Position numbers and translations under genes: made by a program. Below the pieces are notes generated by a model, which was not told where the DNA came from, did not search any database, and saw only the letters and a list, made by a program, of their open reading frames with translations. 64,000 bases of DNA. Source: Novosphingobium kaempferiae. Its GTDB lineage: Bacteria > Pseudomonadota > Alphaproteobacteria > Sphingomonadales > Sphingomonadaceae. This document shows positions 6,304 to 63,300 of the stretch, piece by piece. The stretch spans positions 2,914,001-2,978,000 of the forward strand of contig NZ_CP089301.1 of the NCBI RefSeq assembly GCF_021227995.1. Reading direction: 5' to 3'. How positions within the stretch are numbered: position 1 is the stretch's first letter; every line of letters starts with the position of its first letter.

Positions 6304-6357
6304 TGCGCGGTCGCGACGCACCTAGCCGCATCACGGCCCCGGCGTAGAGTTTCCACC

Positions 6358-8591: not shown

Positions 8592-8659
8592 TCGGGGCGC
8601 GGGCGCTTCAGGGGGAGCGCCCGCATCTCCCTGCCATCTAAATTATTGGCCTAAATCAC

Positions 8660-8767: not shown

Positions 8768-8779
8768 TTAAAGGTAGAC

Positions 8780-10138
8780 TCATCCCGCCTTCACGGTCGC
8801 CACCTCGCGGAACTGCGCATCGTCCTTCAGACGCCGCCCCATGCCCTTCGACGCCAGCCCGTAGAGCACCAGCCCGAGCGCGATCACCGGCAGACCCACG
8901 GTGGTCATCGATGCGCCGATCAGCGCCGGGTCGTGATAGATATGCTCGGTCGAGAAGGCGATCAGCAGCGGGCCCATGGTCGCGCCGAGCAGCGTGTTGG
9001 TCAGCCCGAGCATCGAGGTCGCGACGCCGCGCATGTTGCCGGGGACCAGTTCGGTGACGCTGGAGATCATCGTCGTCCCCAGCATCGGCATCACCGCGAT
9101 CGAGAGCACCACCATCGCCAGCCCCACCGGGAACGAAGGCGCAAAGGCCAGCAGCGTGCTCGGCAGCGCGAGGCAGCAGATCGCCATGAGCAGCCGCAGC
9201 TTCGCCCCCGGCTTCCCGCTGCGCGCCACCCGGTCGTTGACCCAGCCCGCCAGCAGCGCGCCCGTCCCGCCGCAGATCATCGCCGCCGTCCCCAGCCACC
9301 GGCCGACATCGACCGCGCTGCGATCGAAGGTGCGGATAAGGTACGTCGCGTTCCACCCCGCAAGACCATAGGTGTGCATCGTCGCCACCGCGAAGCCGAC
9401 GTAGAAGGGCAGGAACACGATCCAGTTGCGACGGAGATAGCGGAACGCCTCCGCAAAGCCGCCCGCACCACGCGGGGCCGGAGCGGAGCGGCGGACCGGT
9501 TCGCGATAGACCAGCATCAGCGCCGCGACGACGAGGCCGATCAGCCCGCAGATCGCGAAGACCACGCGCCACGGGGCAAGGCCGCCGAGCAGCGGCAGGT
9601 GGTCGAACACGCCGGTCGGCGCGGCGGCGAGCACCTGCGCGGTCAGGAACAGGCCGATGCCGGGAGCCACCGCCTGTCCCAGCAGGTAGACGCTGATCGG
9701 GCGGCCGCGCTGATGGGCGGGAAACATGTCCCCGATCATCGAGATCGCGCAGGGCGCCAGCGCCGCCTCGCCCAGCCCGACGAGCTGGCGCGCGGCGAAC
9801 AGTTCCCCGAAGCTGGACGCTTCCGCGCCGTAGAGCGTCGCAAGGCTCCACACCACGATGCCGAAGATCAGCAGCCGCTTGCGCGACACACGATCGGCCA
9901 GCAGGCCCAGTGGAATGCCCATGACGGCGTAGAAGATGCCGAACGACAGCCCCTGCAACAGACTGATCTGCAGGTCGGTGATGCCCAGCTCGGCACGGAC
10001 CGGCTGCACCACCAGCGTCAGGATGCCCCGATCGATCACCGAGATGATCGAGGCGATGCAGAACAGCACCAGGACGCCCCAGGATCGGCCCCGGGGCGGA
10101 TAGGGTGCAACCGCCGGGACGGCGGGATCGTCGGTCAT
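8780..10138 (-). CDS. MFS transporter, spinster-like
   Basis: A 452-residue inner-membrane protein with about 12 hydrophobic segments. The MFS loop 2-3 signature appears as GLLADRVSRKRLL, and the first helix ends ISVIDRGILTLVVQP as in spinster-type proteins (Asp-Arg in helix 1). Members move organic acids or lipophilic solutes by proton coupling. ATG 10138 is preferred over ATG 10144, because AAGGGA is 5-6 nt from the former but abuts the latter. It is divergent from the LysR gene, with a 28-bp inverted repeat between them, so LysR control is likely. It probably carries the island's substrate or an intermediate. Confidence 0.88.
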   Translation of the reverse strand: MTDDPAVPAVAPYPPRGRSWGVLVLFCIASIISVIDRGILTLVVQPVRAELGITDLQISLLQGLSFGIFYAVMGIPLGLLADRVSRKRLLIFGIVVWSLATLYGAEASSFGELFAARQLVGLGEAALAPCAISMIGDMFPAHQRGRPISVYLLGQAVAPGIGLFLTAQVLAAAPTGVFDHLPLLGGLAPWRVVFAICGLIGLVVAALMLVYREPVRRSAPAPRGAGGFAEAFRYLRRNWIVFLPFYVGFAVATMHTYGLAGWNATYLIRTFDRSAVDVGRWLGTAAMICGGTGALLAGWVNDRVARSGKPGAKLRLLMAICCLALPSTLLAFAPSFPVGLAMVVLSIAVMPMLGTTMISSVTELVPGNMRGVATSMLGLTNTLLGATMGPLLIAFSTEHIYHDPALIGASMTTVGLPVIALGLVLYGLASKGMGRRLKDDAQFREVATVKAG

Positions 10139-10157
10139 GGTCATCCCTTGCGTTCGT

Positions 10158-10185
10158 TCAAATGTTCCATCACCATGACATTTGA
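10158..10185. promoter_or_regulatory. Inverted repeat in the LysR / MFS divergent promoter
   Basis: TCAAATGT-N12-ACATTTGA, a perfect 8-bp palindrome with 12-nt spacer. It sits between the MFS start (10138, minus) and the LysR start (10224, plus), where LysR-type regulators usually bind (their sites are palindromes near the divergent promoter). Assignment to the adjacent LysR is inference. Confidence 0.5.
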
Positions 10186-10223
10186 TCCAGAACAGGAATA
10201 CCGGGTTGCGCCGTTCTATCGAC

Positions 10224-11147
10224 ATGCGGAGACTCGAGCAGTTCGTGGCGGTGGCGCGCACGGGCAGTCTCGGCAAGGCCGCGCAGGAAATGGGCATGAC
10301 CCAGCCGACGCTCACCCGCAACATGCGCGGGCTGGAGACGGACCTCGGCTCCCGTCTCTTCGCGCGCGGCCCCTCGGGCACGATGCTGACGCCTGCGGGC
10401 AGCCGCTTCCTGCCGCGCGCCGAGGAGCTGCTCAACAGCCTCGAGCGCGCGCTCAGCGAGATCGACGAGGAAGGCGCGCAGGCGACGTTGAAGCTCGGCA
10501 TATCGCCCAACTTCCACTTCGATCTCATCCCCGCAGCCATCAACCGCAACGTGCAGGAGAACCCGCTCCTGAATATCCACGTCATCTCCGCCACGCGAGA
10601 ACAGATCGTCGAGGATCTGCGCCGCAAGGAGATGGACCTCGGCTTCTGCCTGATCCCCAGCTTCTTCTACACGCGCAGCACCGAGCTGAACGAGATCGAG
10701 TTCGAGGCGGTGGGCGAGGAACTGATCCTGCCCTACGTGCGGCCGGACCATCCCTACGCCGCCGTCACCCGGCTGGAGGATACCGCCGGCATCCGCTGGG
10801 CGGTGCCGCACCAGCTTTCGGTCAGCTACCGGTTCGAGAGTTCGTTCTATCGCAACAAGCTGCCGGTGCCGCCGCAGTCGCTCAACGCCACCTCGCTCTC
10901 GCTGCTGCGCAGTTCCGCGCTGGAGAGCGACATGGCGGCGCTGCTGCCCGCCCGCTACGCCCGCGCCGACGTGGAGGCCGGGCGCCTTGCCGTGCTCGAC
11001 ATCGAGGCCATGCGCTTCGACTTCGTGTTCGGCTTCATGGAGCGGCGCGGCGTGCGCCCGAGCGCGGTATCCAGCCGGTTCAAGTCGCTGGTGCGCACGG
11101 TGCTGGGGCAGGATGGCACGGCGGTGCCGTCGCTGCCGAAGGGGTAA
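10224..11147 (+). CDS. LysR-family transcriptional regulator
   Basis: A 307-residue regulator. The N-terminal winged helix-turn-helix starts MRRLEQFVAVARTGSLGKAA, with MTQPTLTRNMRGLE as recognition region (about 1-60). A helical linker and a periplasmic-binding-protein-like effector domain follow. ATG 10224 gives the usual LysR N-terminus; a TTG at 10182 would lie inside the palindrome and is not preferred. It is divergent from the MFS gene and convergent with the cupin gene. By family behaviour it senses a pathway intermediate and controls the MFS gene and itself. Confidence 0.92.
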   Translation: MRRLEQFVAVARTGSLGKAAQEMGMTQPTLTRNMRGLETDLGSRLFARGPSGTMLTPAGSRFLPRAEELLNSLERALSEIDEEGAQATLKLGISPNFHFDLIPAAINRNVQENPLLNIHVISATREQIVEDLRRKEMDLGFCLIPSFFYTRSTELNEIEFEAVGEELILPYVRPDHPYAAVTRLEDTAGIRWAVPHQLSVSYRFESSFYRNKLPVPPQSLNATSLSLLRSSALESDMAALLPARYARADVEAGRLAVLDIEAMRFDFVFGFMERRGVRPSAVSSRFKSLVRTVLGQDGTAVPSLPKG

Positions 11148-11163
11148 CGCGACCGAATCCCCC

Positions 11164-11718
11164 CTACTTCCCCGGCTCGGGCGCCTTGCGCAGCGGCAGG
11201 GTCTTTTCCAAGTCGCCCAGCGTGATCTGAACGACGAGGCACACCTTGCGGCCCGTCTTCGCCTCGCAGCGGAAGCGGTGGCCCTTGCCGGCCCAGTTCT
11301 CCGCCAGAACCGCCTCGCCGGGGTTGAGGCGATAGGTCTTGCCATCGCCGGTGTCGACCAGCTGGTTGCCCTGCAGGTAGAGCAGGACATTGGTGTTGGT
11401 CGCATAGTGCCATTCGGACTGGAACCCGTCCGGCCAGTAGGCGATCACCACGCGGCGCACCTGCCGGTCGAACAGCACGTTCATGCCGTAGCTGCCCTGC
11501 GAGACGGGAACCTTCATCTCCTCGACATGGGTCATCCCGTCATCGGCGGAGAAGAGATGATACCAGCGCACCGGCTCCCCGAAATCGCCGAACAGGTTGT
11601 CCGCCGCCGCCGAGGCCGGAGGCGGCATCAAGGCCGCTCCCAGCGCCGTGCAGCACGCCAGCGCTGCGGGGACCGCGCGCCGCACGATCCCCCCCATCCG
11701 TTTCATGAGACCGTTCAT
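11164..11718 (-). CDS. Exported cupin-domain protein
   Basis: A 184-residue protein with an N-terminal signal peptide (hydrophobic VPAALACCTALGAALM, cleavage near ASAAA). A small beta-barrel cupin follows; the segment NTNVLLYLQGNQLVDTGDG and PGEAVLAENWAGKGHRF resemble the two cupin motifs, though the metal-binding histidines are sparse. ATG 11718 uses the A of the receptor's stop codon (TGATG), so it is coupled to the TonB receptor upstream. It probably acts in the periplasm as a binding or isomerising partner of the imported ligand. An internal ATG at 11706 is an alternative start. Confidence 0.75.
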   Translation of the reverse strand: MNGLMKRMGGIVRRAVPAALACCTALGAALMPPPASAAADNLFGDFGEPVRWYHLFSADDGMTHVEEMKVPVSQGSYGMNVLFDRQVRRVVIAYWPDGFQSEWHYATNTNVLLYLQGNQLVDTGDGKTYRLNPGEAVLAENWAGKGHRFRCEAKTGRKVCLVVQITLGDLEKTLPLRKAPEPGK

Positions 11719-14123
11719 CAGAAGTTGTACCGGAAACGCGCGCCGACCTGCCGCCCGGTGCGCAGGCCGACGAGGATGTCGTTGGTGTTGGACCGCAGCA
11801 CGTCCACGTTGCGCACGATGCTGGTGTAGGTCCGCTCGTTGGTGAGGTTGAGCACGAAGGCCTCCAGCCGAGCCCGGTCGGAAGAGAGGCCCGCGCGCAG
11901 GTTGACGAGGTGCGTGTCCGGCGTCCAGGCGAGGTTCGCCTCGGTCTCGTACATGCGGTTCTTGTAGATGTAGTCCGCACGCAGATACCACTGGTCGAGC
12001 AACCCGCCGAGGATCGGCGCGGGCAGGTCTGCGGTGTACTGCGCACCCGCCGTGGCGTTGACCGAGGGCACGCGCGGCAGGCTGTTGCCCGACACGTCCG
12101 AGCTGCCGGTGATCGAGACCGCGCAGGTCACGCAGACATAGTCGACGATCTCGCTGTAGTTGTAGCCGACGCCGCCGTTGAACGCGAGGTTGTCGGTCGC
12201 GCGCCAGTCGAGCTGGCCCTCGATGCCCGCAAGGCGCGTCTTACCTGCGTTGGCGGAGAAGGTCTGCACCTGCGTCTGGTTGCCCGAACCGCCCGCCGGG
12301 ACGACCGCGTTGACCGAGATGATCTGGTCGTTCCACGTCCCGTAATAGGCGCTGACGTCATAGCTGAGCGTGCCGAACAGGCGGCCCTTCACGCCCAGTT
12401 CCCACTGCTCCAGCTTCTCGGGCTTCACGGTGGTCTGCGCGCCGGTCTGCTCGAACGCGGCGTCCTGCACCGCCTGCGACGCGGTGGCGAGCGAGGCGTT
12501 GAAGGCGCCGGGGTTCATGCCCTTCGACCACGAACCGTAGACGGTGAGGTCGCGCGTCGGCTCAACGGTCAGGCTGACGCGCGGCAGGAAGTTCTTGTAG
12601 GTCGCCTTGAGCAGCGTGTCGGTCGGCTTGTCGTAGACGCGGCGACGCGAATAGATGTTGTCGATCTGGTAGCGGCCGTCGAAGCTGAGGTTGAATATGC
12701 CCAGCGTGTAACCGAGGCCGAAGAACCCGCTCCACGTCTTCGCCTGATTGATGACCGCGCCGGTCGAGACGCGATAGCCGGTGGGGTAGAGCGCGTTGGC
12801 GTTCGGCGTGCTGAGCGCCTGCGTGTAGTTCGCGCCGATGGTCCAGGTGAACGGGCCGCTGCCCGTCGAGGCGGCGCGCAGTTCGCCCGACCAGTCGTCG
12901 AACATGTATTCCACGTAGCTCTGGTAATCGATGTAGGGCCGCACGAGGTTCGCGTTGCTGCCGGTGAAGTTCGGATTGGCGACGCCGCGCGTATCCTCGA
13001 GGTCGAGGTCGTTGAGCGTGGCGTAGTGGTTCTGGTTCCACGAGGCGAGCGCCGAGATGCTCACCGGCGCGAAGGGCATGTCCCATGTCAGGCCGCCATG
13101 GACGTGATAGGCGCGGCGCTTCATGCCCGCCTCGGTCTGGAGCAGGTTGTCGAACAGCAGCGGCACGTTGGGGTTGTCGATGACCTGGCTGCGGAACAGC
13201 GGGTCCATGATGACGTTGCTGGCGGGCGTCAGCGTGGGGCTGCCCGGCAGCTTGCCGCAGACGTAGTTGAGCCCGCGACCGAGGCCCGCATCGCAGTTGT
13301 AGTCCTGCCGTGCGAACTTGCCGAGCGGGCCCGGGCCGTCATCGTCATGCCAGCCGAGACCGAAGACGCGGAACGTCAGGTTCTCGGTCGGCTTGGCGAT
13401 CAGGGTGACGGCAAGGCTGGTCGATTCCTGCTGGCCCAGCGTCTCCGACGAACCGCCGGGATTGTCGAAGTCGCCATCGGTGTAGAAGTGGCGCCCGCTC
13501 ACGCGGAACAGCAGCTTGTCCGGGATGATCGCGCCTTCGAGCGAGGCGACTACGTTGGTCCAGTTGTTCGACGCGATCTGTCCCTCGATCGAGCCGCCCA
13601 GTTCGTTGCCGGGATCCTTGGTGACGAGGTTGACCGCGCCTGCGAACGTCGCGCGGCCGAAGTAAGCGCTCTGCGGCCCCTTCAGCACCTCGACGCGGGC
13701 AAGGTCGCCGATGCCCTCGACGAAGCCGCCGGTCACCGGCGCGCCGTCGATGAAGACCGAGACGTTGCCGTTCGACGTCGGCGAGGAAGACGGCGTCATG
13801 CCGCGGATGATGATCTGCTGGTTCGAGCGGTCGGCGCGACCCGAGCCCGAGTTGGACAGGTACATGCTCGGCGTCACGTCGGCGACGTCGTTGAGGTTGG
13901 CGATGTTGCGCTTTTCCAGCGACGCGGAATCGAGCGCGGTAATCGCGATCGGCACGTCCTGCAGCGATTCCTCGCGCTTGCGGGCGGTGACGACGATGTC
14001 GCCGGGTAGGCTCTCCTGCGCCTGCGCTTCCTGCGCCAGCGCGGGCGCGGCGACGAGGCTCTGCCCGATGACGCCCGCCGCTGCCGTGGCGAGCAAAACC
14101 CTCAGATACGAAGTGCGGTCCAT
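11718..14123 (-). CDS. TonB-dependent receptor (complete)
   Basis: An 801-residue outer-membrane receptor: signal peptide ending near ALAQEAQA, TonB-box-like DIVVTARKREES, plug domain with VEVLKGPQSAYFGRATFAG, and a 22-strand-type barrel ending in GARFRYNF (aromatic last residue, as outer-membrane proteins need). An extracellular Cys pair (YNC...LNYVCGKL, near 13250-13300) matches that of the first receptor. The start ATG 14123 has AGGG about 7 nt upstream. It is coupled to the periplasmic cupin and lies downstream of a GPH-type MFS gene, so uptake through outer and inner membranes is encoded together. Ligand unknown. Confidence 0.95.
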   Translation of the reverse strand: MDRTSYLRVLLATAAAGVIGQSLVAAPALAQEAQAQESLPGDIVVTARKREESLQDVPIAITALDSASLEKRNIANLNDVADVTPSMYLSNSGSGRADRSNQQIIIRGMTPSSSPTSNGNVSVFIDGAPVTGGFVEGIGDLARVEVLKGPQSAYFGRATFAGAVNLVTKDPGNELGGSIEGQIASNNWTNVVASLEGAIIPDKLLFRVSGRHFYTDGDFDNPGGSSETLGQQESTSLAVTLIAKPTENLTFRVFGLGWHDDDGPGPLGKFARQDYNCDAGLGRGLNYVCGKLPGSPTLTPASNVIMDPLFRSQVIDNPNVPLLFDNLLQTEAGMKRRAYHVHGGLTWDMPFAPVSISALASWNQNHYATLNDLDLEDTRGVANPNFTGSNANLVRPYIDYQSYVEYMFDDWSGELRAASTGSGPFTWTIGANYTQALSTPNANALYPTGYRVSTGAVINQAKTWSGFFGLGYTLGIFNLSFDGRYQIDNIYSRRRVYDKPTDTLLKATYKNFLPRVSLTVEPTRDLTVYGSWSKGMNPGAFNASLATASQAVQDAAFEQTGAQTTVKPEKLEQWELGVKGRLFGTLSYDVSAYYGTWNDQIISVNAVVPAGGSGNQTQVQTFSANAGKTRLAGIEGQLDWRATDNLAFNGGVGYNYSEIVDYVCVTCAVSITGSSDVSGNSLPRVPSVNATAGAQYTADLPAPILGGLLDQWYLRADYIYKNRMYETEANLAWTPDTHLVNLRAGLSSDRARLEAFVLNLTNERTYTSIVRNVDVLRSNTNDILVGLRTGRQVGARFRYNF

Positions 14124-14130
14124 GCTTTTC

Positions 14131-14158
14131 CCTGTTCCTTGCCTTGTTGCGGAACAGG
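14131..14158 (-). promoter_or_regulatory. Leader hairpin / operator before the second TonB receptor
   Basis: CCTGTTCC-N12-GGAACAGG, perfect 8-bp arms with 12-nt spacer, lying 8 nt upstream of the start codon. The arm nearest the gene overlaps the AGGG ribosome site on the minus strand. In RNA it could fold and hide the ribosome site; in DNA it could be an operator. Its geometry equals that of 10158-10185. Confidence 0.4.
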
Positions 14159-14198
14159 AGACCCCAGCCGGACCGGGGCTTTAAGCAGGCAATCGCGG

Positions 14199-14221
14199 CT
14201 GTTCACTCTGCGATGAACCAG
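14199..14221 (-). promoter_or_regulatory. TGAACAG-type imperfect inverted repeat
   Basis: CTGTTCA-N8-TGAACCAG, about 75-98 nt upstream of the receptor start. On the minus strand it ends in TGAACAG, like the element at 2498-2516 upstream of the first receptor. It may be a shared regulatory site. Confidence 0.35.
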
Positions 14222-14253
14222 AGGGCGGCCCGTGGGTTTTCGCCACCCTGCGA

Positions 14254-15636
14254 TCAGATCGCGGCATCCTCGCGCGCCTTTTCCAGCGCCGCCGCGTCGA
14301 GGCGGTAGAACCAGATGAGCGTGGCCGCCGTCAGATTCGCGAGGATCGGCACGCCAACGAGCAGCACGTAGAGTGAGAGAACCGCGCTGTCGGGCTGGAC
14401 CACGATGGCCCCGCCCGTCGTCGGGATGTAGCCGCCGAACGCCAGGAAACCGCCGATCAGCGCGGGCGCGACGGCGAAGGCGATCTTCTCGACGATGGCG
14501 TAGACGCTGGCGAACATGCCCTCGCGGCGCAGGCCGGTGCGGTAGAAGTCGAACTGCATGGTGTCGGGCAGCATCGCGGTGCCCGCCAGCAGGATCCCGG
14601 CGCTGAACACGCCGCGCATGAACCCGCGCGTGGCGAGCGTCCAGGCGGTCTCCTCGATCCCCGGTATCAGCCAGGCGAGGTAGATCAGGCACTGCGCGAA
14701 GAGGCCGAGGATGTAGATCGGGCGCTTGCCCCAGCGGTTGATCGCCTTCACCCACAGCGCCAGCGATCCGGCGAGCGCGATGTTCTCGGCCACGCTGAAC
14801 CAGACCTGCCCGGTGTAGCCGACCTTGGCGACGTTGAGCAGGAACAGCAGCTGCGTGCTCGCCGTCGCCGCCTGCCCGAAAAGCAGGAACAGCTTGGCGG
14901 TCATCAGCAGCACGAAGGGGCGGTTGGAGAAGACCATGCGCACATGCGCGAGCGGACGGACCGGCGTGCCCGTTTCCACCCGCTCCTGCCGCCGCGCCTT
15001 GGCGGTGAACACGACGGTGAGCTGCGTGGTGCAGACGATCACCACCGCCAGCGTCAGGCCCATCACCGCATAGCCCCGCTCCCCGCGCCCGAACGCCGCG
15101 ATGAGCTGCGCGCCGCCCGCGACCGAGACGAGCTGCCCCACCGCGATGAAGAAGCTGCGCCAGGAGATCAGCCCGGTACGGGACGCGGCATCGTCGGTCA
15201 TCTCGGCGGGCATGGCGATGTAGGGGATGTTGAACAGCGAATAGCCGGTCGAATAGATCACCAGCAGCACCGCAAGGCTGACGATCAGACCGGTCCCGCT
15301 CGGCAGCAGCCACGGGTTGAAGATCAGCGCGAATGCGCCTGCGCCCATCAGGCTGCCCACGAACATGTAGGGCCGCCGTCGCCCCCAGCGCGATTTCGTG
15401 CGGTCGCTCGCCGCGCCGATCAGGATGTCGGCGACGATGTCGTAGAGCTTCGATCCCGTCAGCAGCATCCCCGCGATCGCGGGCGACAGGCCGAGCACCG
15501 TCGCCAGCATCGCCGGGAAATACATCGAGATCGGGTTGAGCATGCAAGACACGCCCACCGTCCCAATCCCGAAGGCGAGCGAGAGCGACAGCGGAAGTTC
15601 GGATTTGCGCGCGGGCGCGGGTCTGGTAGCGGCCAT
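14254..15636 (-). CDS. MFS transporter, GPH (glycoside-pentoside-hexuronide)-like
   Basis: A 460-residue inner-membrane protein of about 12 helices. Motifs seen are YDIVADILIGAASDRTKSRWGRRRPY, split here as the conserved D-x-x-x-D of helix 2 and the SDRT..RWGRRRP loop typical of MelB-like cation:sugar symporters. Members in sphingomonads often move glycosides or steroid-like compounds. ATG 15636 (MAATRPAPARK) gives the usual short N-terminus; a GTG at 15687 would add 17 residues. It is divergent from the hydrolase at 15779, with a sharp palindrome (15692-15708) between, and it is followed by the TonB receptor on the same strand. Confidence 0.88.
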   Translation of the reverse strand: MAATRPAPARKSELPLSLSLAFGIGTVGVSCMLNPISMYFPAMLATVLGLSPAIAGMLLTGSKLYDIVADILIGAASDRTKSRWGRRRPYMFVGSLMGAGAFALIFNPWLLPSGTGLIVSLAVLLVIYSTGYSLFNIPYIAMPAEMTDDAASRTGLISWRSFFIAVGQLVSVAGGAQLIAAFGRGERGYAVMGLTLAVVIVCTTQLTVVFTAKARRQERVETGTPVRPLAHVRMVFSNRPFVLLMTAKLFLLFGQAATASTQLLFLLNVAKVGYTGQVWFSVAENIALAGSLALWVKAINRWGKRPIYILGLFAQCLIYLAWLIPGIEETAWTLATRGFMRGVFSAGILLAGTAMLPDTMQFDFYRTGLRREGMFASVYAIVEKIAFAVAPALIGGFLAFGGYIPTTGGAIVVQPDSAVLSLYVLLVGVPILANLTAATLIWFYRLDAAALEKAREDAAI

Positions 15637-15691
15637 GTCGCCATGAAGTGCCGCATCGGCCTTCGACGCCAGCCCTCCCGGCAGCACTTAT

Positions 15692-15708
15692 CGACTGACG
15701 GTCAGTCG
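15692..15708. promoter_or_regulatory. Palindromic operator candidate (TetR-type geometry)
   Basis: CGACTGACGGTCAGTCG is a perfect palindrome of 8-bp arms around one G, in the 142-nt divergent promoter between the GPH transporter and hydrolase copy 3. Short, near-continuous palindromes of this kind are typical of TetR-family operators. No TetR gene is in the window. Confidence 0.45.
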
Positions 15709-15778
15709 CGATCCGATCCGTGACCATGGCCGGACCGCCCTGCTAGCCCGCACCTCGACACGGCAGGAGACCCGACAG

Positions 15779-16594
15779 GTGCAGATCATCCGCAGCTATA
15801 CGCAAGGCCGCTGGGGACAGGTGCATCTGCGGTCCTGCGGAGAGCAGCGCGCCGATGGTCCGCCGCCGCTACTGTGCATCCACTCCACCCCTGCCAGCGG
15901 CGCGATGTGGGACGCGATCCTGCCCCGCCTTGGCCGCGACCGGCTGGTGATCGCGCCCGACACGCCCGGCTACGGCATGAGCGACGCTCCGCCCGCACCC
16001 GTCTCGATCCGGGAGTACACCGAGGCCCTCGCCGCGCTCTGCGACGAACTCGGCCTCGTCCGCATCGACGTCGCGGGCTTCCACACCGGCTCGATCATCG
16101 CCACCGAACTGGCGAACCTGAGGCCCGATCTGGTCCGCCGCATCGTCGTCTTCGGCCTTGCCGCCTATGACGCCGACGCCCGCGCCCAGCGTCTCGCCCG
16201 TGTACGCGAGTTCTTTCCCGAGCCCGCCGCCGATCTCGTCCACATCGAGAAGCTCTGGGCCAAGCTCACCGAACTTGCGGACCCGCGCCTCCAGCCGGAG
16301 GAACGCCACCTCGCCATGGCCGAATCGCTGCGCACCGGGGCTCGGCTGCCGTGGGGCTTCATGGCGGTCTACGGCCACGACTTCATCGGCGCGATGGCGC
16401 GGGTGGCGCAGCCGGTGCTGGTGATGAACCCCGAGGACGACCTCTGGATCCTGACGCGCACGCACTGGCGCATCTACCCCGACGCCCGCCTCATCGAGAT
16501 GCCCGGCGTGAAGCATGGGGTGCTCAAGCTGGAAACCGACCGCGTGGAGGCCGAACTGCGCGCCTTCCTCATCCCGGAGTCGACATGCTGCTGA
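15779..16594 (+). CDS. Alpha/beta hydrolase with histidine at the nucleophile elbow (copy 3)
   Basis: A 271-residue alpha/beta-hydrolase-fold protein. IHSTPASG at about 34-41 takes the oxyanion-loop place, DTPGYGMSD follows, and the elbow is G100-F-H102-T-G104. Unlike copies 1 and 2, it keeps an acidic loop NPEDDLW and a C-terminal His (His246, in VKHGVLK), so a His-Asp-His set is possible. The start is GTG 15779, with AGGAG about 9 nt upstream. It overlaps the M24 gene by 10 nt. Closest to copy 4 within the window (both have GYG/GYG-SDAP, WGF..VY, PEDDLW). Confidence 0.82.
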   Translation: MQIIRSYTQGRWGQVHLRSCGEQRADGPPPLLCIHSTPASGAMWDAILPRLGRDRLVIAPDTPGYGMSDAPPAPVSIREYTEALAALCDELGLVRIDVAGFHTGSIIATELANLRPDLVRRIVVFGLAAYDADARAQRLARVREFFPEPAADLVHIEKLWAKLTELADPRLQPEERHLAMAESLRTGARLPWGFMAVYGHDFIGAMARVAQPVLVMNPEDDLWILTRTHWRIYPDARLIEMPGVKHGVLKLETDRVEAELRAFLIPESTCC

Positions 16595-17757
16595 ACCGCG
16601 ACCGCGCCGATGCGATCATGGATCGCGAGGGACTGGCGGCCATCGTCGCCTCCTCGCCGATCAACACCTACTACCTGTCGTCCTGGGCGACCGACGCCAG
16701 CTGGGGCTTCGGCGACCTCGCCCTCTGCGTCCTGCCGCGCGACCGGACGCTGCCCCCTGCAGTCATCACGGTGGAGGTCGACGCCGGACAGCCGCAGCAG
16801 CGCGACGGCACCTGGATGGACATCGTGCGCGGCTACGCCCGTCGCCCCGGCATCGGCCCCGGCGGCGTGCAGGCAAGCGCGGACGCCGCCGGCCTCCCGA
16901 CTGACCACGCCACCGCCATCGCCGCATGGTTCGGCGAACTCGGCTTCGCGGACGTCGCCGTCGCCTTCGAGGACCGCGGCCTCGGCGCCGATGTCGCGAC
17001 GCTGGTGCCGGGCCTGCGCGTGGTCGACGGCAAGGATCTCCTGCGCGAGATCCGCATGGTCAAGACACCGCAGGAACTCGCCTTCATGCGCGCCGCCGCG
17101 CGCAAGACCGACGCCGCCATCGCCCTGTGCGCCGAGGCCATCGCCGCCGGAGCCACCTGTGCCGAGGCGGAGCGCGTGTTCTGGGCAGGCGTGCCGATGA
17201 TGGGCGCGCGGCCGATGTTCCTGCTCATCACACCCTACCGCCCCGGCCACGGCCGCCTGCCGAAGACCGCGCAGCTGCTCCCCGGCGATACCGTGACGTT
17301 CGACGCCACCGCCGAATATGCGCACTACACCAGCGACATCGGCCGCACCCTCGTGATCGGGGAGCCGAGCGCCGACCAACTGCGCTGCTACAACGCCACG
17401 CGCCAGGGCTGGCTCGCCTCGCTCGACGCCTTCCGCGCGGGCGAGCGTTCCACCGATGTCGAGGCGAAGGTGACCGCCGCGATCCGGGCGGCGGGCAATC
17501 CGGCCTACGGATCGTCCAACATCCATTCGGTCGGCCTCGAACACACCGACCACCCGCACCCCGGCAATGCCATGGCGCCCTTCACGCTGGAGACCGGCAT
17601 GATGCTGAGCTGCGACCTGCCGTGGATCGGGCCGGACGTGGGCAAGTTCCACTTCGAGGATCTGATCCTGCTCGGCCCCGAGGGGGTCGAGATCGTCAAC
17701 CGGGCCGACAACCGGCTCATCGCCTGCATCGACGGCCGCACCGAGCACGTCGGCTGA
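16585..17757 (+). CDS. M24 (Xaa-Pro peptidase / creatinase) family protein A
   Basis: A 390-residue pita-bread-fold protein: creatinase-like N-domain (1-155) and M24 catalytic domain. Family metal ligands are seen at Asp240, Asp251, His314 (NIHSVGLEHTDH) and Glu358, but the first Glu of the family (in the xEPG motif) is Asp344 (SCDLP). The family cleaves Xaa-Pro peptides or other C-N bonds such as creatine. ATG 16585 has GGAG 5 nt upstream and overlaps hydrolase copy 3, so they are coupled. It shares MLLNR start and HSVGLEHTDHP with protein B at 21130. It may cleave an amide or guanidine-like bond of the island's substrate (inference). Confidence 0.85.
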   Translation: MLLNRDRADAIMDREGLAAIVASSPINTYYLSSWATDASWGFGDLALCVLPRDRTLPPAVITVEVDAGQPQQRDGTWMDIVRGYARRPGIGPGGVQASADAAGLPTDHATAIAAWFGELGFADVAVAFEDRGLGADVATLVPGLRVVDGKDLLREIRMVKTPQELAFMRAAARKTDAAIALCAEAIAAGATCAEAERVFWAGVPMMGARPMFLLITPYRPGHGRLPKTAQLLPGDTVTFDATAEYAHYTSDIGRTLVIGEPSADQLRCYNATRQGWLASLDAFRAGERSTDVEAKVTAAIRAAGNPAYGSSNIHSVGLEHTDHPHPGNAMAPFTLETGMMLSCDLPWIGPDVGKFHFEDLILLGPEGVEIVNRADNRLIACIDGRTEHVG

Positions 17758-17780: not shown

Positions 17781-17856
17781 CGTCATTGCGAGCGCAGCGA
17801 AGCAATCCAGCGGCGCGTAAACCGCTCAGGATTACTTCGCTGCGCTCGCAATGACG
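17781..17856. repeat. Palindromic repeat, family A (copy 1)
   Basis: A 76-bp inverted repeat. Left arm CGTCATTGCGAGCGCAGCGA continues with AGCAATCC; the right arm is its reverse complement with small changes. Copies of the same family lie at 36180, 41328, 45514, 53282, 60248 and 63151, with split arms at 44147-44230. Confidence 0.9.
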
Positions 17857-37054: not shown

Positions 37055-37223
37055 GGGGCAGTCCTCTAACCGTCCGGACGCGGGCGCGCCACCAATGTTT
37101 TGGCAAAGTTCCGATACAGATTCGGCCTATATTGCCCGTTTGTGACGACAATCGTCATGCACAGCGCTGCAGCTTTGCGGCATTGTCCGCCCCGCGACAG
37201 AACCGACGCGGGGGATGAGCGCG

Positions 37224-40200
37224 ATGACGGATGAATTGCCCGGAGAGTTGTCTGGCGCGGGCGTGCGCCTGATCGGCCTGACTGCAACACCCACCGGACC
37301 CGACACGCTGCGACGATCGCGGGGCGAAGCAGGTAGTGATGACGCCGACGCGCTGATCGCCTCGGCCCTCGACGGCGCGGGGATGACCGTCGTCGCCGAT
37401 GTCGTCGTCGCGCCGCCTGCCGCCGTTCCCGAAGCGGGCCTGCGTCGCAGCCGGGGCTCAGCCGAACCCGCTCCCCATATCGAGGTGGACGTGGGGGCGG
37501 ACGAGACCGCCGTGGTCCTGCTCGAAGCCGAGGGCGGCGTGTTCAACTGGGTCTTCCCCGAGGAAGTCCAGACCCGCCGCGCGCGCGGCAGCGGGCCGCA
37601 GACGCTCACTTTCGTGCTGGAGCCGCCCGCGCCCGAGGCGCCGGACCGGCGAAGCTGGGCGGGCGCTCTGGTCAACCGGCTGGTGGAGCCGGTGCGCGTG
37701 CGCGTCACCCGCTTCGCCGCCAACCTTGCCATCGATGCGCTGGTGGAGCGGATCGAGGGGGAGATCGTCGAAGGCCCGGTGCTGATGGACGGCCCGGCGC
37801 TCGGCTGGGTGGCCAAGGGGCCAAGGTTCGCGGCTCCCCCGACGGTGCGCCCCGGCGCGCGGGTGCTGCTGTTCGTCCACGGCACCTTCTCCACCGTGCG
37901 CGGCAGCTTCTCCGCACTGGAACAGACCGCCGAGGGCAAGGCGTTCCTCGACGCGGCGCGGGCGCATTACGACCTCGTGCTGGGCGTCGATCACCGCACC
38001 CTCGCCGACGACCCGGAGGCCAACGCCGAACTGTTCGAGAAGGCGCTCGGCTTCCTGCCCGACGGGACCGAGATCGACGCCATCGGCTACAGCCGGGGCG
38101 GCCTCGTCCTGCGCGCGGTGGTGGCGCGGCTGGGGGCGCGGCTCGCCTTCCGCAAGCTGGTCTTCGTGGGCTGCACCAATGCGGGCACGCATCTGGCCGA
38201 ACCGGAGAACTGGCGCTCTCTGGTCGATCTCTACACCAGCATCCTCGTCGCCGGCAGCAAGCTGCTGGGCATGGCGACGGTGCCGGTGGTGGCGACCGTG
38301 ACGGAACAGGCGATCCGGCTCGTCGCGGGCTTCGTGAAGGCGATGCCGCAGATCGGCGTGGAGGAAGGCAAGGTGCCCGGCCTCGCCGCCATGCGCCCCG
38401 GCAGCGCCACCGTCACGCGGCTGGCGAAGGCGGATGCTTTGGGCGGCGCGGGGCCGGTCCACGCCATCGCCGCCGAGTTCGAGCCCGCCTCCTTCGACCT
38501 GAACAAGGGCATGACGCCGCAACTGGCCGCGTTCCTGGGGGACCGGATGGTCGACCGGCTGTTCGGCACCGCCAACGACCTCGTCGTCGACACCGCCTCG
38601 ATGGCGGACTTCGGCGCGGCGACGGCGGCCCCGGCATGGCCCGCGCTGCTGACGATCCCGGCGGCGGATTCGATCTACCACGTCATCTACTTCGCCACTC
38701 CGCGCGTGGCGGATGCGCTGCAGTCGTGGCTGATCGGCCAGCCGGCGATGGCGGCGCCACCACCGATGGCGGCCGCGCCCGCGCCGGTCGCCTCCGCACC
38801 GCCACCCCGCCGCAGCCGCCCGAGCACGGCCCCGGCCATCGACGCGCCGGTCCTCGAAGCCGCTCCGCCTCCCGACTTCACCGCCGAGGCGCTGGACGCC
38901 TTCGCCGAAGCGCCGACAGCGGGAGCAGCCGCTCCGCCCGAGGCCGACCACGCCGCCTGCTACTTCTCGGCGGAGATGGACTCCGCCCCCGTGGTGACGA
39001 TGCCGGTGCCGCTGTTCGTCACCGTCTCGCCCGAGAAGATCGTCGTGTCCGGCCCCTCCGCCGCGACCGACGCGCCGGTCATGGCGTCCCGCTCGGAGCC
39101 CGCGATGGTCACCGTCACCGCCCTCGCCAACTGCGAGGTCGTCGGCAAGGCGACGCAGCGGCTGACGATCCCGGACGACGTCGCCCGCTTCGAGGTGCGC
39201 GGCTCCACCCCCGGCGCCGCGCGGGTGCAGGTGGAGATCGTGCAGGGCGCCGCCCCCCTCGCCTCGCTGCTGCTGGAGCCGGTGTTCCTGCCCGATACCG
39301 GCAACACCATCCGCGCCGAGGCCCGCGCCGTCCCCGACCGCGCCTGCCCCGGCAACGCCGCCACCTTGCGGATCTACGAACTGCGCCAGCAGGACGGCAG
39401 CCTGCTCATCCGCTACGACCTGTCGGGCAAGGGCCTCGCCGAAGCGTGGGACAAGGTGCTGCCCGCGAGCTTCAGCATGGAGACCTTCGTCGGCCAGTTC
39501 CTCGGCAAGCTCGACGCCGCCTACAACCAGAGCAGGACCGAATATAAGCTGTTCCTCAGCCGCATCACCGACTTCGCGGTCGATTCCACCAACCAGCTCG
39601 TCCCCGCCGAAGTGCGCGCGGCGCTGTGGGAGCATCGCGACCGGATCGACGCGGTGCAGGTGATCTCCGACAGCCCCTACATGCCGTGGGAACTGCTCTA
39701 CATCGACGATCCGGCGGGCGGCGGGTTGGAGAACCGGGGCTTCCTGGCTGAATGGGGGCTGGTGCGCTGGATGTACAACGCCGTCTGGCCCGGCGACACG
39801 ATCCAGCTTCGCGGCGACCGCGTCCGCTACGTCATCCCCGACTACCTCAACGTGCGCGACAAGCTGCCGCAGGCGACGCAGGAGCGCGAGATGCTCACCC
39901 ACCTGTTCGGCCCCGGCGCGGTCCCGGTCGAGCGGCTGGAGGGCGAGACGCACAGCGAGAGCGTCAATCGCTTCCTCTCCAAGAACGCCACCGAATGCGA
40001 CCTCCTCCACTTCGCCTGCCACGGCGAGGCGCAGCAGATGGCGGTGCTCAATTCCGACCTCGTCCTGTCCGGCGAAGTCACGGAAAAAGGCACCATCGCC
40101 GACGACCTGCTCCCCTCCAGCGCGGTCAAGCGCCGCGCTCTGTTCCGTGGCCGGGACGCGGAGCCGAGCGGCCTCGTCTTCGTCAACGCCTGCCAGACCG

Positions 40201-40475
40201 GCAAGCCCGGAGAGGGGATCTCGGGCGTCTCGGGCTTCGCCGACGCCTTCCTGCGCCCGGTGACGGACGGCGGCGCGGCAGCTTTCGTGGGGGCGCTGTG
40301 GTCGGTGGGGGACACGCTGGCGCGGACCTTCGCCGACACCTTCTACGCCCGCCTGCTCGCCGGGGAGCGGCTGGTCGACGCGGTGAAGGACGCCCGGCGC
40401 GCCTGCCAGAGCGAGAGCGACTTCACCTGGCTCGCCTACACCATCTACGGCAACCCCTTCGCCCGCAAAGGATGA
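37224..40475 (+). CDS. Serine-hydrolase (lipase-like) and CHAT caspase-like protease fusion
   Basis: About 1083 residues. From the longer start at 37215: an N-terminal region of unknown fold (1-205), an alpha/beta hydrolase with FVHGTFS (220-226), elbow GYSRGG with Ser293, Asp455/459 and His489 (SIYHVIYF); a Pro/Ala-rich linker (about 509-575); a beta-rich region (about 590-690); and a C-terminal CHAT protease with HFACHG (His936) and NACQTG (Cys993). Both active sites look complete. CHAT proteases are caspase-like peptidases often found in bacterial conflict systems, and paired lipase domains could attack membranes. ATG 37224 lies 8 nt after GGGGGA; ATG 37215 abuts the G-run. First of three coupled or closely spaced genes. 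Confidence 0.88.
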   Translation: MTDELPGELSGAGVRLIGLTATPTGPDTLRRSRGEAGSDDADALIASALDGAGMTVVADVVVAPPAAVPEAGLRRSRGSAEPAPHIEVDVGADETAVVLLEAEGGVFNWVFPEEVQTRRARGSGPQTLTFVLEPPAPEAPDRRSWAGALVNRLVEPVRVRVTRFAANLAIDALVERIEGEIVEGPVLMDGPALGWVAKGPRFAAPPTVRPGARVLLFVHGTFSTVRGSFSALEQTAEGKAFLDAARAHYDLVLGVDHRTLADDPEANAELFEKALGFLPDGTEIDAIGYSRGGLVLRAVVARLGARLAFRKLVFVGCTNAGTHLAEPENWRSLVDLYTSILVAGSKLLGMATVPVVATVTEQAIRLVAGFVKAMPQIGVEEGKVPGLAAMRPGSATVTRLAKADALGGAGPVHAIAAEFEPASFDLNKGMTPQLAAFLGDRMVDRLFGTANDLVVDTASMADFGAATAAPAWPALLTIPAADSIYHVIYFATPRVADALQSWLIGQPAMAAPPPMAAAPAPVASAPPPRRSRPSTAPAIDAPVLEAAPPPDFTAEALDAFAEAPTAGAAAPPEADHAACYFSAEMDSAPVVTMPVPLFVTVSPEKIVVSGPSAATDAPVMASRSEPAMVTVTALANCEVVGKATQRLTIPDDVARFEVRGSTPGAARVQVEIVQGAAPLASLLLEPVFLPDTGNTIRAEARAVPDRACPGNAATLRIYELRQQDGSLLIRYDLSGKGLAEAWDKVLPASFSMETFVGQFLGKLDAAYNQSRTEYKLFLSRITDFAVDSTNQLVPAEVRAALWEHRDRIDAVQVISDSPYMPWELLYIDDPAGGGLENRGFLAEWGLVRWMYNAVWPGDTIQLRGDRVRYVIPDYLNVRDKLPQATQEREMLTHLFGPGAVPVERLEGETHSESVNRFLSKNATECDLLHFACHGEAQQMAVLNSDLVLSGEVTEKGTIADDLLPSSAVKRRALFRGRDAEPSGLVFVNACQTGKPGEGISGVSGFADAFLRPVTDGGAAAFVGALWSVGDTLARTFADTFYARLLAGERLVDAVKDARRACQSESDFTWLAYTIYGNPFARKG

Positions 40476-40480
40476 TCGCG

Positions 40481-40819
40481 ATGGCCGAAATGACGCTCAA
40501 CCCCACCTTCAGCCTTGCGCCCGAGAAGCTGTGGCAGGCGATAAATCCGTGGACCTGGACCTTCGAGGGCTCTCAGGTCGGCCTCGTCAACGTCCACATC
40601 GGCGAGACGAAATACCCGGAAACCGAGCGCGCGATCCTCGACGAAGTGGGCAGCTACGGCCGCCAGCTTGGCCGCATCGGCGACGCGCTCGAAGTGCTGA
40701 TCGCGCATTTCGATGCGGGCAGCCTCACCGAAAAGGAACGCGATGCGCTCACCATCCTCGAAGGCGACCTTGCGAAGATCCGCCGCATCAAGGCGCGCGA
40801 ACGCGAAAAGGTGCAATGA
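40481..40819 (+). CDS. Small helical partner of the CHAT fusion
   Basis: A 112-residue protein: N-terminal SLAPEKLWQAINPWTWTFEGS, a middle part, and a charged helical C-terminus (EKERDALTILEGDLAKIRRI). No family recognised. ATG 40481 has AAGGA 8 nt upstream; ATG 40472 overlaps the CHAT stop (ATGA) but its ribosome site abuts it. Tight linkage suggests that it is a cofactor, inhibitor or substrate of the CHAT protease (inference). Confidence 0.75.
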   Translation: MAEMTLNPTFSLAPEKLWQAINPWTWTFEGSQVGLVNVHIGETKYPETERAILDEVGSYGRQLGRIGDALEVLIAHFDAGSLTEKERDALTILEGDLAKIRRIKAREREKVQ

Positions 40820-40878
40820 CCTTGCCAGCGCCGGACAATGCAGGCAGCATCGCCACCGGCAAAACAGGAGGTGAATTC

Positions 40879-41256
40879 ATGAGCGATTTCGACCCCAAGC
40901 CTGCGACTTCGGCCCCCACTACTTCGGGCTTCGACTTCAACAACCCGACGATCATCAACCTGCTTTATCTGGCCTCGTACATCACGGGGATCACCGGCAT
41001 CGTCGGCGTCGTCCTCGCCTACGTCTGGCGCGGCGAACCCAAGGCGGCGTGGGAGGTTTCGCACTACGAATACGCGATCAAGACCTTCTGGATCTTCCTG
41101 ATCGGAACCGTCGTGGGCTTCATGCTCATCATCGCGCTGATCGGCTTCCTGATCCTGCCCGCCGTGGCGATCCTCGTGATCGTGCGCTGCGTGATGAGCA
41201 TCCTCAACGCGCAGAAGCAGGTGCCGATGCCCAATCCGGGATCTTGGCTGGTCTGA
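40879..41256 (+). CDS. Membrane protein, DUF4870-like
   Basis: A 125-residue protein with about three to four membrane helices (NLLYLASYITGITGIVGVVL; FWIFLIGTVVGFMLIIALIG; FLILPAVAILVIVRCVMSIL), resembling the DUF4870 / Tic20-like group. ATG 40879 is preceded by AGGAGGT, an ideal ribosome site, so strong translation is expected. It lies 59 nt after the helical partner gene and is probably in the same transcript. DUF4870 genes also occur alone in sphingomonads, so its membership in the CHAT unit is not certain. Confidence 0.82.
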   Translation: MSDFDPKPATSAPTTSGFDFNNPTIINLLYLASYITGITGIVGVVLAYVWRGEPKAAWEVSHYEYAIKTFWIFLIGTVVGFMLIIALIGFLILPAVAILVIVRCVMSILNAQKQVPMPNPGSWLV

Positions 41257-41327: not shown

Positions 41328-41403
41328 CGTCATTGCGAGCGTAGCGAAGCAATCCAAGGCGGTTTACGCGGCGCTGGATTGCTTCGCTACGCTCGCAATG
41401 ACG
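41328..41403. repeat. Palindromic repeat, family A (copy 3)
   Basis: 76 bp with near-perfect arms (GCGAGCGTAGCGAAGCAATCC type, and its complement). It lies in the convergent gap between the DUF4870-like gene and DUF1294, 37 nt from a family B repeat. Confidence 0.9.
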
Positions 41404-45513: not shown

Positions 45514-45588
45514 CGTCATTGCGAGCGCAGCGAAGCAATCCACGGCCGGCCCTCGACCATGGATTGCTTCGCTACGCTCGCAATGACG
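45514..45588. repeat. Palindromic repeat, family A (copy 4)
   Basis: 75 bp, standard arms, in the convergent gap between the VOC gene and the thioesterase gene. It may serve as a two-way transcription stop. Confidence 0.9.
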
Positions 45589-53281: not shown

Positions 53282-53356
53282 CGTCATTGCGAGCGTAGCG
53301 AAGCAATCCAGCGTGGTGGGCCAACCGAGGATTGCTTCGATACGCTCGCAATGACG
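53282..53356. repeat. Palindromic repeat, family A (copy 5)
   Basis: 75 bp, standard arms with one mismatch (GCTTCGATACGC in the right arm). It lies in the convergent gap between the transglutaminase-like gene and plsC. Confidence 0.9.
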
Positions 53357-60247: not shown

Positions 60248-60322
60248 CGTCATTGCGAGCGTAGCGAAGCAATCCAGCGGCGTGGGCCGACCGTGGATTG
60301 CTTCGCTACGCTCGCAATGACG
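60248..60322. repeat. Palindromic repeat, family A (copy 6)
   Basis: 75 bp, near-perfect arms, in the convergent gap between the PepSY fusion and dnaE2, ending 9 nt from the dnaE2 stop. Confidence 0.92.
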
Positions 60323-60331
60323 AATGCGACC

Positions 60332-63300
60332 TCAGTGAAAGTCCCGCGAGCGGGGCAGGATGCGCACGTTGCGCGGATGTCCCCGCGACGCATGGCCCGA
60401 AGTCGGCCGGTTCGGATCGTAGACCGGGTGGCGCACCGCATCGCCCGGCATCGGCTCGGGCTTGAGCATCGGCGGCGGCGAGAGGCGCGCCATCGCCTCG
60501 CTGGCATCGGTGACGAGATCGACCATCAGGTGAACCACGCCTTCCTTGCTGTGCTGGACCACGCCGTCGATCACCATCAGCCGCGCGGCCATCACCGCGC
60601 GCCGCTGCTTCTCGAACTCGCGCGCCCAGAGCAGCGCGTTCACGATGCCGGTCTCATCCTCGATGGTGATGAAGATCGCATTGCCCTTGCCGGGTCGCTG
60701 GCGGATCAGCACGACCCCGGCGACGCGCACTTTCTGACCATCCTTCGCGGTATTGACTTCCGCGCAGGTCCGCACCCCCTGCCCGGCGAAGTGTTCGCGC
60801 AGGAACTGCATGGGGTGGCCCTTCAGCGACAATCGCTGGGTCTGGTAATCGGCGACGACTTCCTCGGACGGCGCCATCGCGGGAAGCGCGGCTTCGGGTT
60901 CCGCGGCCAGTTCGGGCGCATCCAGCGCCGCGAAAAGCGGCAGTTGCGCCGAAGGCACCCGCCGCGCCTCCCACCCCGCCTGACGCCGGCTCTGCCCCAG
61001 CGAGCCGAGCGCATCGGCATCGGCCAGCAACCGCAGGGCGCGCGAGGGCAGCCCGGCCCGGCGCGCGGCGTCCTCAAGGTTCGCGATGGGCGCAGCCTCG
61101 CGCGCCGCTTTCAGCGCCTCGGCCCACTCCTTCTTGAACCCGCCGATCTGCCGCAGGCCAAGGCGCAGGATGCGTTCGCCCTCCAGCGTATTGTCCCAGA
61201 AGCTGTCGCGGATATCGATAGGCCGGACCTCCACCCCATGTTCGCGCGCATCGCCGACAAGCTGCGCGGGCGCATAGAACCCCATCGGCTGGCTGTTGAG
61301 CAGCGCGCAAGTGAACACCGCCGGATAATGGCACTTCAGCCATGACGAGACGTAGGCCAGCAGCCCGAATGCCTGCGCATGGCTTTCGGGAAAGCCGTAT
61401 TCGCCGAAACCTTCGATCTGCTTGAAGCAACCCTCGGCGAAGTCCTGCGGATAGCCGCGCCGGACCATGCCGTTGACGAACTTTTCCTGATGTTCATGGA
61501 TGGTGCCGTTGCGCCGGAACGTCGCCATCGAGCGGCGCAGGCGGTCGGCCTCAGCGGGGGAGAACTTCGCCGCGACGATCGCAAGGCGCATCGCCTGTTC
61601 CTGAAACAGCGGTACGCCCATGGTCTTGTAGAGCAGATCTTCCATCTCGCCCTTCGGGCCGGGAAAGACGACCTTCTCCTCACCCGTGCGCCGCCGCAGA
61701 TAGGGATGGACCATGCCGCCCTGAATCGGGCCGGGCCGCACGATGGCCACCTGGATGACGAGATCGTAGAGTTCGCGCGGCTTCATGCGCGGAAGCATCG
61801 CGATCTGGGCGCGGCTCTCGACCTGGAACGTGCCGATGCTGTCGCCCCTGCACAGCATGTCGTAGGTCGGCACGTCATCCTGCGGGACGGTGGCCAGTTC
61901 CAGATCGCGCCAGCCATGATCGCGCAGCAGATCGAAGCTCTTGCGGATCGCCGTCAGCATGCCAAGCGCGAGAATGTCAACTTTCATCAATCCGAGGGAT
62001 TCGAGGTCTTCCTTGTCCCACTCGATGAAAGTGCGCTTCTCCATCGCCGCATTGTGGATCGGCACGAGTTCGTCGAGCCGACCTTCGCTCAGCACGAAGC
62101 CGCCGACATGCTGCGAAAGGTGGCGGGGGTATTCGAGGAGCCGCCCCACCATGTCGCGCAGACGCTCCACCTGCGGGTTGGCGGGGTCAAACCCGGCTTC
62201 GGTCAGGCGGGTTTCGGGCAGTTCGGTGCCACCCCAGCTGCCCCAGACGGTACCGGAGAGGCGCGTGGTGATGTCCTCGCTCATGCCCAGCACCTTGCCG
62301 ACTTCGCGGATGGCGCTGCGCTGGCGATAACGGATGACGGTGGCGGCAATCCCGGCACGGTCGCGGCCGTAGCGATTGTAGATATACTGCATCACCTCTT
62401 CGCGCCGCTCGTGCTCGAAATCGACGTCGATGTCGGGCGGCTCGTCCCGCTCGGTGGAGAGGAAGCGCGTGAACAGCAGTTTTTCTTCCACCGGGTCGAT
62501 CGGCGTGACGCCAAGGAAGTAGCAGACCAGCGAATTGGCCGCGCTGCCGCGTCCCTGACACAGAATCGGCGGATCGAGACTGCGCGCGTAATGCACGATG
62601 TCGTGGACGGTGAGGAAGTAGTAGGCGATCTTCTGGTCACGGATCAGGCCGAATTCCTCGTTCAGCGTCTCTTGGTACCTGGGTGGCAGGCCATCGGGGA
62701 ACCACTTGCGCGAGCCCTCCATGACGAGATGCTCCAGCCACGGCTGCGGCTCCCAACCTTCGGGCACCGGCTCGTGCGGGTATTCGTAGCGCAAGTCGTC
62801 GAGGGTGAATTTCACACAGGCCAGCAAGTCCTGCGTCGCCGCCAGCGCCTCGGGGCAGGCGCGGAACAGGCGGGCCATCTCGACGGGGAACTTGAGGTGC
62901 CGCTCGGCATTGGCGGCGAGGCGGCGACCGGCGGTCTGGACGGTCAACCCCTCGCGGATGCAGGTGAGGACGTCCTGCATCGGCCTGTCCTCCGGCGTCG
63001 CATAAAGCACGTCGTTGGTGGCGATCAGGGGGACGCCGGTGCGCTGCGACAGCGCCATCCGCTCCGCCAGCCGACGCGCGTCGCGACCGGCACGGGGCAT
63101 GGTGGCGGCAAGCCAGAGCCTGACCGTAGTTTCCGCCTTGCCCCCTCCTTCGTCATTGCGAGCGTAGCGAAGCAATCCATGCGGTGCGCGATGCCGCTGG
63201 ATTGCTTCGCTACGCTCGCAATGACGAGGTGTGAGTGTAGATGTGGAGTGCGAATGAGCAGCCAGCGCCCGCAACGTGGCAAGCAGCGCTTCGTCCCCAT

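Follow-up and report, generated by a model that had tools for sequence, protein, structure and literature searches.

Within the 64,000-nucleotide window of Novosphingobium kaempferiae DNA analysed here, which is part of a 5.70-Mb single-contig genome, we identified a gene whose single product joins an α/β hydrolase to a CHAT caspase-like protease, hereafter the fusion. The two domains share one chain with conserved active sites, the fusion is rare and patchy in its occurrence, it holds an optional position in an operon, and its relatives include copies beside conflict-type genes as well as two-gene forms. With moderate confidence, we read the protein as a one-chain form of the pair of α/β hydrolase and caspase-like peptidase found in nucleoside-triphosphate-dependent conflict systems, in which it would act as a latent effector; judged from sequence, a function of the conflict class is plausible. 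The features of the gene are given below, with residue numbers counted from 37215, as in an earlier sequence-only reading of this DNA, and with the predicted local distance difference test (pLDDT) as the measure of model confidence.

37224–40475, + strand: hydrolase-CHAT fusion gene (open frame, Pfam domains)
37302–37625, + strand: DUF7362 region, residues 30–137 (Pfam, 31.2 bits, cut-off 27.6)
37773–38738, + strand: α/β hydrolase, residues 187–508, with the DUF7379 core at 218–403
38091, 38577 and 38679, + strand: codons of the hydrolase triad S293, D455 and H489
38739–38936, + strand: Pro/Ala-rich linker, residues 509–574 (pLDDT below 50)
38970–39275, + strand: DUF7363, all-β, residues 586–687 (Pfam, 73.6 bits, cut-off 28.3; strands in the model)
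39336–40457, + strand: separase/TPR-CHAT-like protease region, residues 708–1081, with CHAT at 882–1080
40020 and 40191, + strand: codons of the protease dyad H936 and C993

According to the list of open reading frames (ORFs), the frame is open from 37215 to 40475 on the + strand (1086 codons). Translation probably begins at 37224 and yields 1083 residues up to the stop at 40475, since a GGGGGAT box precedes the corresponding ATG by a few bases in two relatives, L005 and L015. Pfam assigns residues 218–403 to DUF7379 (PF24096) with 179.2 bits against a cut-off of 33, and residues 882–1080 to CHAT (PF12770) with 81.2 bits against a cut-off of 24; no TPR match was found in the fusion at E up to 1. 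NCBIfam gave no match at E up to 1 for the fusion or for the two small proteins encoded after it, of 112 and 125 residues. The Pro-rich linker that the sequence-only reading placed between the two enzymes is real, as residues 509–574 are rich in Pro and Ala and modelled with pLDDT below 50.

The same reading had credited this single protein with two apparently complete active sites, and its positions S293, D455, D459, H489, H936 and C993 are all correct. We aligned the window protein with 16 relatives; L019 from Phenylobacterium, which matches residues 48–508 only, and L029, whose similarity to the fusion is partial, were excluded. S293, D455, H489, H936 and C993 are identical in 17/17 proteins, so that every catalytic residue is retained in all 16 relatives, which supports the claim. 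The reading left the hydrolase acid as Asp455 or Asp459; the former stands, and the latter is not kept, being His in L027 and Pro in L030. D455 is therefore the likely catalytic acid. The fusion carries both a CHAT profile match above cut-off and a His-Cys dyad, which mark the CHAT class, and both a DUF7379 profile score and a Ser-Asp-His triad, which mark the α/β hydrolases.

Specifically, the low-confidence structural model of residues 187–508 resembles lipases, thioesterases and carboxylesterases. Lipases, thioesterases and esterases are all compatible with the predicted hydrolase fold taken by itself; lipase activity is putative, as is the membrane attack suggested by the sequence-only reading. 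The equally low-confidence model of residues 708–1081 resembles separase and Craspase TPR-CHAT. Comparison of the single fusion sequence with solved structures returned no match, and family profiles reach the CHAT protein 8rot with E values of 2e-4 and 3e-3.

The fusion is seldom met with. DUF7363 occurs in 2/398 sampled Pseudomonadota genomes, one of which is the window's own, in 4/195 Novosphingobium genomes with the own genome included, and in 17/242 Bradyrhizobium genomes (16 above cut-off); DUF7379 alone exceeds its cut-off in 16/398 Pseudomonadota genomes, again counting the own one. The two closest relatives of the window copy are 67% and 73% identical to it. Partial relatives are present in 14/72,556 plasmid records by tblastn, none of which spans 80% of the query. 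The own genome holds three further CHAT genes, two with TPRs, and none shows DUF7379 within the stretches of 700–848 residues searched. In the open-access literature, we found no paper on the three family names DUF7362, DUF7379 and DUF7363, nor one joining the CHAT domain, a lipase and conflict systems.

The neighbours of several relatives are of the conflict type, with genes taken as the longest ORFs except in annotated records. In Pseudomonas sp. GL-B-19 (L018), a run at 7863–17680 comprises the hydrolase-CHAT gene, an IetA-like AAA gene, a NACHT gene whose product matches Trypsin_2 below threshold (25.1 bits against 27.6), and a metallo-β-lactamase-like gene, its match likewise below threshold (22.7 against 27). 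On sequence grounds, this four-gene run looks like a conflict cluster; plasmid records searched with its trypsin/NACHT protein gave no match. In the Novosphingobium locus L027, the opposite strand bears trypsin-like and AAA genes, and an amidase gene lies farther out. On a megaplasmid of Ruegeria pomeroyi (L030, 11818–18622), the hydrolase-CHAT gene is followed by SIR2-PtuA and PtuB genes of the Septu type; this Septu-like set may thus include a two-enzyme effector as an addition. All 11 Bradyrhizobium loci examined for it have a further CHAT stretch some 1.7 kb upstream of the fusion (E 5e-5 to 7e-4). One of these loci, L006, was read gene by gene; there, the stretch belongs to a 419-residue protein, and a 532-residue protein with hydrophobic stretches lies between the two. 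The fusion copy L099 has an AAA_5 gene in a nearby convergent gene run, and the ORF list of L100, a very similar copy, shows none.

Additionally, related enzymes occur as separate genes or in other arrangements. Another Bradyrhizobium locus, L101, is a two-gene form in which an LCAT-like hydrolase gene adjoins a TCAD7-CHAT gene; the latter's product scores 29 bits for TCAD7 (cut-off 24) and 20 bits for DUF7363, below cut-off. On a Hymenobacter plasmid (L029), genes for a TerB protein, a CHAT protein, a weak-hydrolase protein (17.2 bits, cut-off 26.3) and a further CHAT protein are neighbours, near methyltransferase and TIR genes. L089 combines DUF7379, CHAT and TPR-S in one protein, with a kinase-Usp gene nearby; its protein (3760–9378) and that of L091 (3151–8823) are about 1,880 residues long, with several hydrolase stretches before CHAT. 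In L030, L089 and L091, the hydrolase precedes CHAT as in the fusion; unlike the fusion, these three give no DUF7363 match at E up to 0.01, and L089 and L091 are far longer.

The closest parallel is with the VMAP (MoxR-vWA) ternary systems, where, in the excerpts of Kaur et al. 2020 (PMC7159879) considered here, the caspase domain always comes with a neighbouring α/β-hydrolase gene (cited papers are represented by excerpts throughout). The same two kinds of enzyme, reported there to work together, are fused in the window, and in this known pair the fusion finds its precedent as a fused variant. Unlike those systems, it is a single chain that includes DUF7363, and no MoxR-vWA-VMAP core was recognised by eye among the ORFs beside it; bpMoxR, whose profile matches 12/14 controls, has one match in the genome, far from the fusion. 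The TCAD7 domain ties the L101 kind of protein to the ternary-system class. Both domain kinds are also reported as effector domains of fungal NLRs, namely SesB-like α/β hydrolases and CHAT, with reported or proposed roles in cell death (PMC9815663, in part); this likeness is by domain kind, and theirs sit on NLRs. As to the protease half, the predicted fold over residues 708–1081 and the His-Cys dyad resemble Craspase TPR-CHAT/Csx29 and eukaryotic separase. The fusion differs from these in its attached hydrolase, gives no TPR match, and does not keep the Asp with which separase reads the P1 Arg.

Under the favoured reading of a one-chain latent effector, the fusion would be held latent until a trigger switches on the CHAT protease. 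The active protease would then cleave either the flexible linkers of the same chain or some substrate close by, after which the hydrolase would attack an acyl substrate, be it membrane lipid, lipoprotein or acyl-thioester, and this attack would stop the growth of the attacked cell. In the window's clade, the fusion would do so as the optional first gene of an operon with the 112-residue and membrane genes, behind a shared palindromic site. As far as the excerpts go, Kaur et al. 2020 inferred the joint action of caspase and hydrolase from gene order, which gives no mechanism. With a natural fusion that keeps both sites intact, and with two-gene versions at hand, joint action becomes a question about one protein.

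Several results weigh against this reading. PADLOC assigned no family to the fusion or to the 112- and 125-residue proteins at E up to 1, and no fusion relative was found by tblastn in any of 50,697 phage records at E 1e-5. The whole-protein model has a mean pLDDT of 57, which is low confidence. The VMAP-C profile matched nothing in the genome, and it matched no control either. No defence gene was recognised next to the fusion in the window, where neighbours were read as ORFs only, with no family search, and the separase Asp mentioned above is not kept according to a weak alignment, a result contrary to self-cutting. The link to bacterial conflict drawn by the sequence-only reading is supported by the genes beside several relatives, and by nothing recognised among the window's own neighbours. 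For the class as a whole, according to the same excerpts of Kaur et al. 2020, the conflict role is itself drawn from genomics.

What the protease cuts is a separate matter, and it turns on Arg-Arg motifs in the linkers of the fusion.

37311–37322, + strand: RRSR, residue 33, linker 1
37443–37454, + strand: RRSR, residue 77, linker 2
37575–37586, + strand: RRAR, residue 121, linker 3
37647–37658, + strand: RRSW, residue 145, linker 3b
38808–38819, + strand: RRSR, residue 532, linker 4

The window fusion has seven Arg-Arg pairs, of which these five lie in linkers, all with pLDDT below 50. Such segments make up 33% of the chain, and the share of pairs in them is higher than expected (p 0.042), which does not hold for single Arg residues (24/74). 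We compared the linker pairs with shuffles made within four linkers in 6/16 proteins, the linker limits having been drawn after the window motifs were known. The counts exceed the shuffles in the window copy (p 0.0022), L005 (p 0.0058), L015 (0/5000 shuffles) and L027 (p 0.0058), and are not significant in L006 (p 0.067) and L018 (p 0.49), the latter having Arg-Arg in a single linker. Two divergent copies fetched later and much alike, L099 and L100, have Arg-Arg in linkers 1, 3, 3b and 4 and none in linker 2, as placed by eye, with three more pairs within the protease half. In the fastest linker, 7/12 Arg columns are invariant among 11 Bradyrhizobium copies against 15/82 other columns (Fisher p 0.0058), a rough test as the sequences are related. 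The motif itself is repeated: RRSR occurs three times and LRRSRG twice in the window fusion, and GRRSF three times in L027, these being the only 2/61 gene-like ORFs of the fetched loci in which a tetramer containing Arg-Arg occurs three times. Shuffled DUF7363 fusions also give some Arg-containing tetramer three times in 13 to 40 of 300 cases, so the repeats are supporting evidence and no proof.

Taken together, these motifs suggest self-processing. Separase offers a precedent in cutting itself at three sites in an insert (excerpts of PMC12609080 and PMC10317155). Tentatively, then, the fusion may be a self-processing two-enzyme zymogen, whose CHAT protease would cut the Arg-Arg motifs at the domain borders and free the lipase-like domain. 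Motif and protease would co-evolve lineage by lineage, giving LRRSR in the window and GRRSF in L027. Such a protein would be a bacterial, single-chain equivalent of killer domains that a protease sets free, an idea that we regard as rather unlikely. Should cleavage occur at the linker motifs, it would become directly testable whether the protease acts first and the hydrolase second.

A fair possibility, short of an even chance, is that CHAT cuts other proteins only and that the Arg-Arg pairs are basic patches touching acidic lipids or a partner, or the product of drift in GC-rich linkers. In its favour, the characterised TPR-CHAT cleaves a separate substrate, Csx30 (PMC10028731, in part), and TPR-CHAT carries K670 at the position of human separase D2070, the residue that reads the P1 Arg (excerpts of PMC9729208 and PMC10317155, respectively). 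The S1 Asp position, D2070 in human and D2151 in C. thermophilum separase, aligns with R1037 in the window fusion and is R, Y, N, L or V among the relatives, in a separase alignment that is weak (E about 1). Arg specificity would accordingly need another pocket residue. D1033 had been considered as the Arg-reading Asp and was dropped, as human D2070 (position 2070 of the 7nj1 chain) aligns with R1037. The confinement of Arg-Arg to one linker in L018 and the chance repeats in shuffled fusions also fit a protease that acts on others; the excess over shuffles in the four Novosphingobium copies (p 0.006 or less), its recurrence in L099 and L100 and the over-conserved Arg columns speak against it. 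The self-processing proposed by the sequence-only reading is accordingly hinted at by the motifs, and the weak alignment shows no counterpart of the pocket residue that separase uses.

An unlikely alternative to the favoured latent effector is a chromosomal enzyme of envelope or lipid maintenance, in which CHAT would be a regulatory protease that tunes the hydrolase under stress, with no role in defence. The window's genes do look ordinary, with ORFs at the locus that we take from their translations to be ubiE, ubiB and coaBC, and the fusion sits in a stable syntenic site, its operon mates encoding a small helical protein and a DUF4870-like membrane protein, neither matched by PADLOC. A maintenance role is hard to square with a domain so rare in Novosphingobium, with three syntenic relatives that lack the fusion, and with the conflict-type genes around several copies.

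The favoured reading places the fusion at the head of an operon, the further elements of which are as follows.

37143–37157, unstranded: inverted repeat TGACG-N5-CGTCA, candidate operator, upstream of the operon
40481–40819, + strand: 112-residue helical protein of a family found in Novosphingobium, independent gene (in 20/195 genomes)
40879–41256, + strand: 125-residue membrane protein (weak DUF4870 match, 21.6 bits, cut-off 25)

As the sequence-only reading had it, the 112-residue ORF follows the fusion stop at 5-nucleotide spacing, which also holds in L005 and L015, and an ideal ribosome site, AGGAGG, precedes the membrane gene. For the 112-residue protein, Pfam, PADLOC and NCBIfam returned nothing with E up to 1; its model contains helices only, with a low-confidence mean pLDDT of 53. 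That reading also cast the small genes as partners and asked whether the 112-residue gene always follows the fusion. It does so in 3/17 aligned loci by tblastn (the window, L005 and L015) and was not found at 14/16 relatives, including the divergent Novosphingobium copy L027. This largely matches what that reading had named as refuting it, absence from most neighbours, and its view of the two small genes as general partners does not hold. Counted with a profile of its own, the family is present in 20/195 Novosphingobium genomes, 17 of them without DUF7363, and in 3/4 of those with DUF7363.

The three loci L071–L073 are syntenic with the window locus, run in the order ubiE, 112-residue gene, membrane gene, and have no fusion; their ubiE is 92–95% identical to the window's, and a Novosphingobium profile search found no DUF7363 elsewhere in their genomes. 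The window's 112-residue protein is 88–91% identical to theirs against 78% and 81% to those of L005 and L015, respectively, and the gene therefore looks native to the window site. The membrane gene lies near the 112-residue gene in 8/17 loci without the fusion, several loci being cut by contig ends. As a constant component of the system, the 112-residue protein was rejected, since tblastn does not find it at 14/16 relatives and it keeps its locus without the fusion in L071–L073; nor does the small gene always accompany a would-be toxin, as in toxin-antitoxin pairs, being found in 2/16 relatives and the window. That the fusion is a toxin restrained by the 112-residue protein is improbable: the constant 5-nucleotide spacing in all three loci with both genes and the one-sided loss, in which the small gene is kept beside the window copy and the two relatives closest to it and 17/20 carriers of it lack DUF7363, would fit, and its absence by tblastn at 14/16 relatives, the wider spread of its family and its place near the membrane gene in fusion-free loci argue against it.

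In the window, L005 and L015, the inverted repeat TGACG-N5-CGTCA lies ahead of the fusion, and in L071–L073 it lies ahead of the 112-residue gene. Because it thus precedes the operon in all six clade members examined, with the fusion first or absent, the fusion can be regarded as optional, set between a common upstream region and two genes that also occur as a pair on their own. Single copies of the repeat are also present in L002 and L077, apart from fusion and 112-residue genes. The longer form TGACG-N5-CGTCATG has seven sites in the genome and the reversed pattern none; the other six sites, at 536666, 1573839, 2378782, 2879706, 5011762 and 5258287 of the genome contig, have mixed surroundings, some within ORFs. 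A scan for sigma-70-like promoters found none, and two terminator-like sites were found, the same number as in shuffles.

When up to three mismatches are allowed, a dispersed palindromic repeat with the arm ATTGCGAGCGTAGCGAAGCAATCC is matched 14 times in the window, against none in shuffles. It lies at 17785–17852, 41332–41399, 45518–45584, 53286–53352, 60252–60318 and 63155–63222, with single arms at 36184 and 44205, and a full hairpin of this repeat stands directly 3' of the membrane gene.

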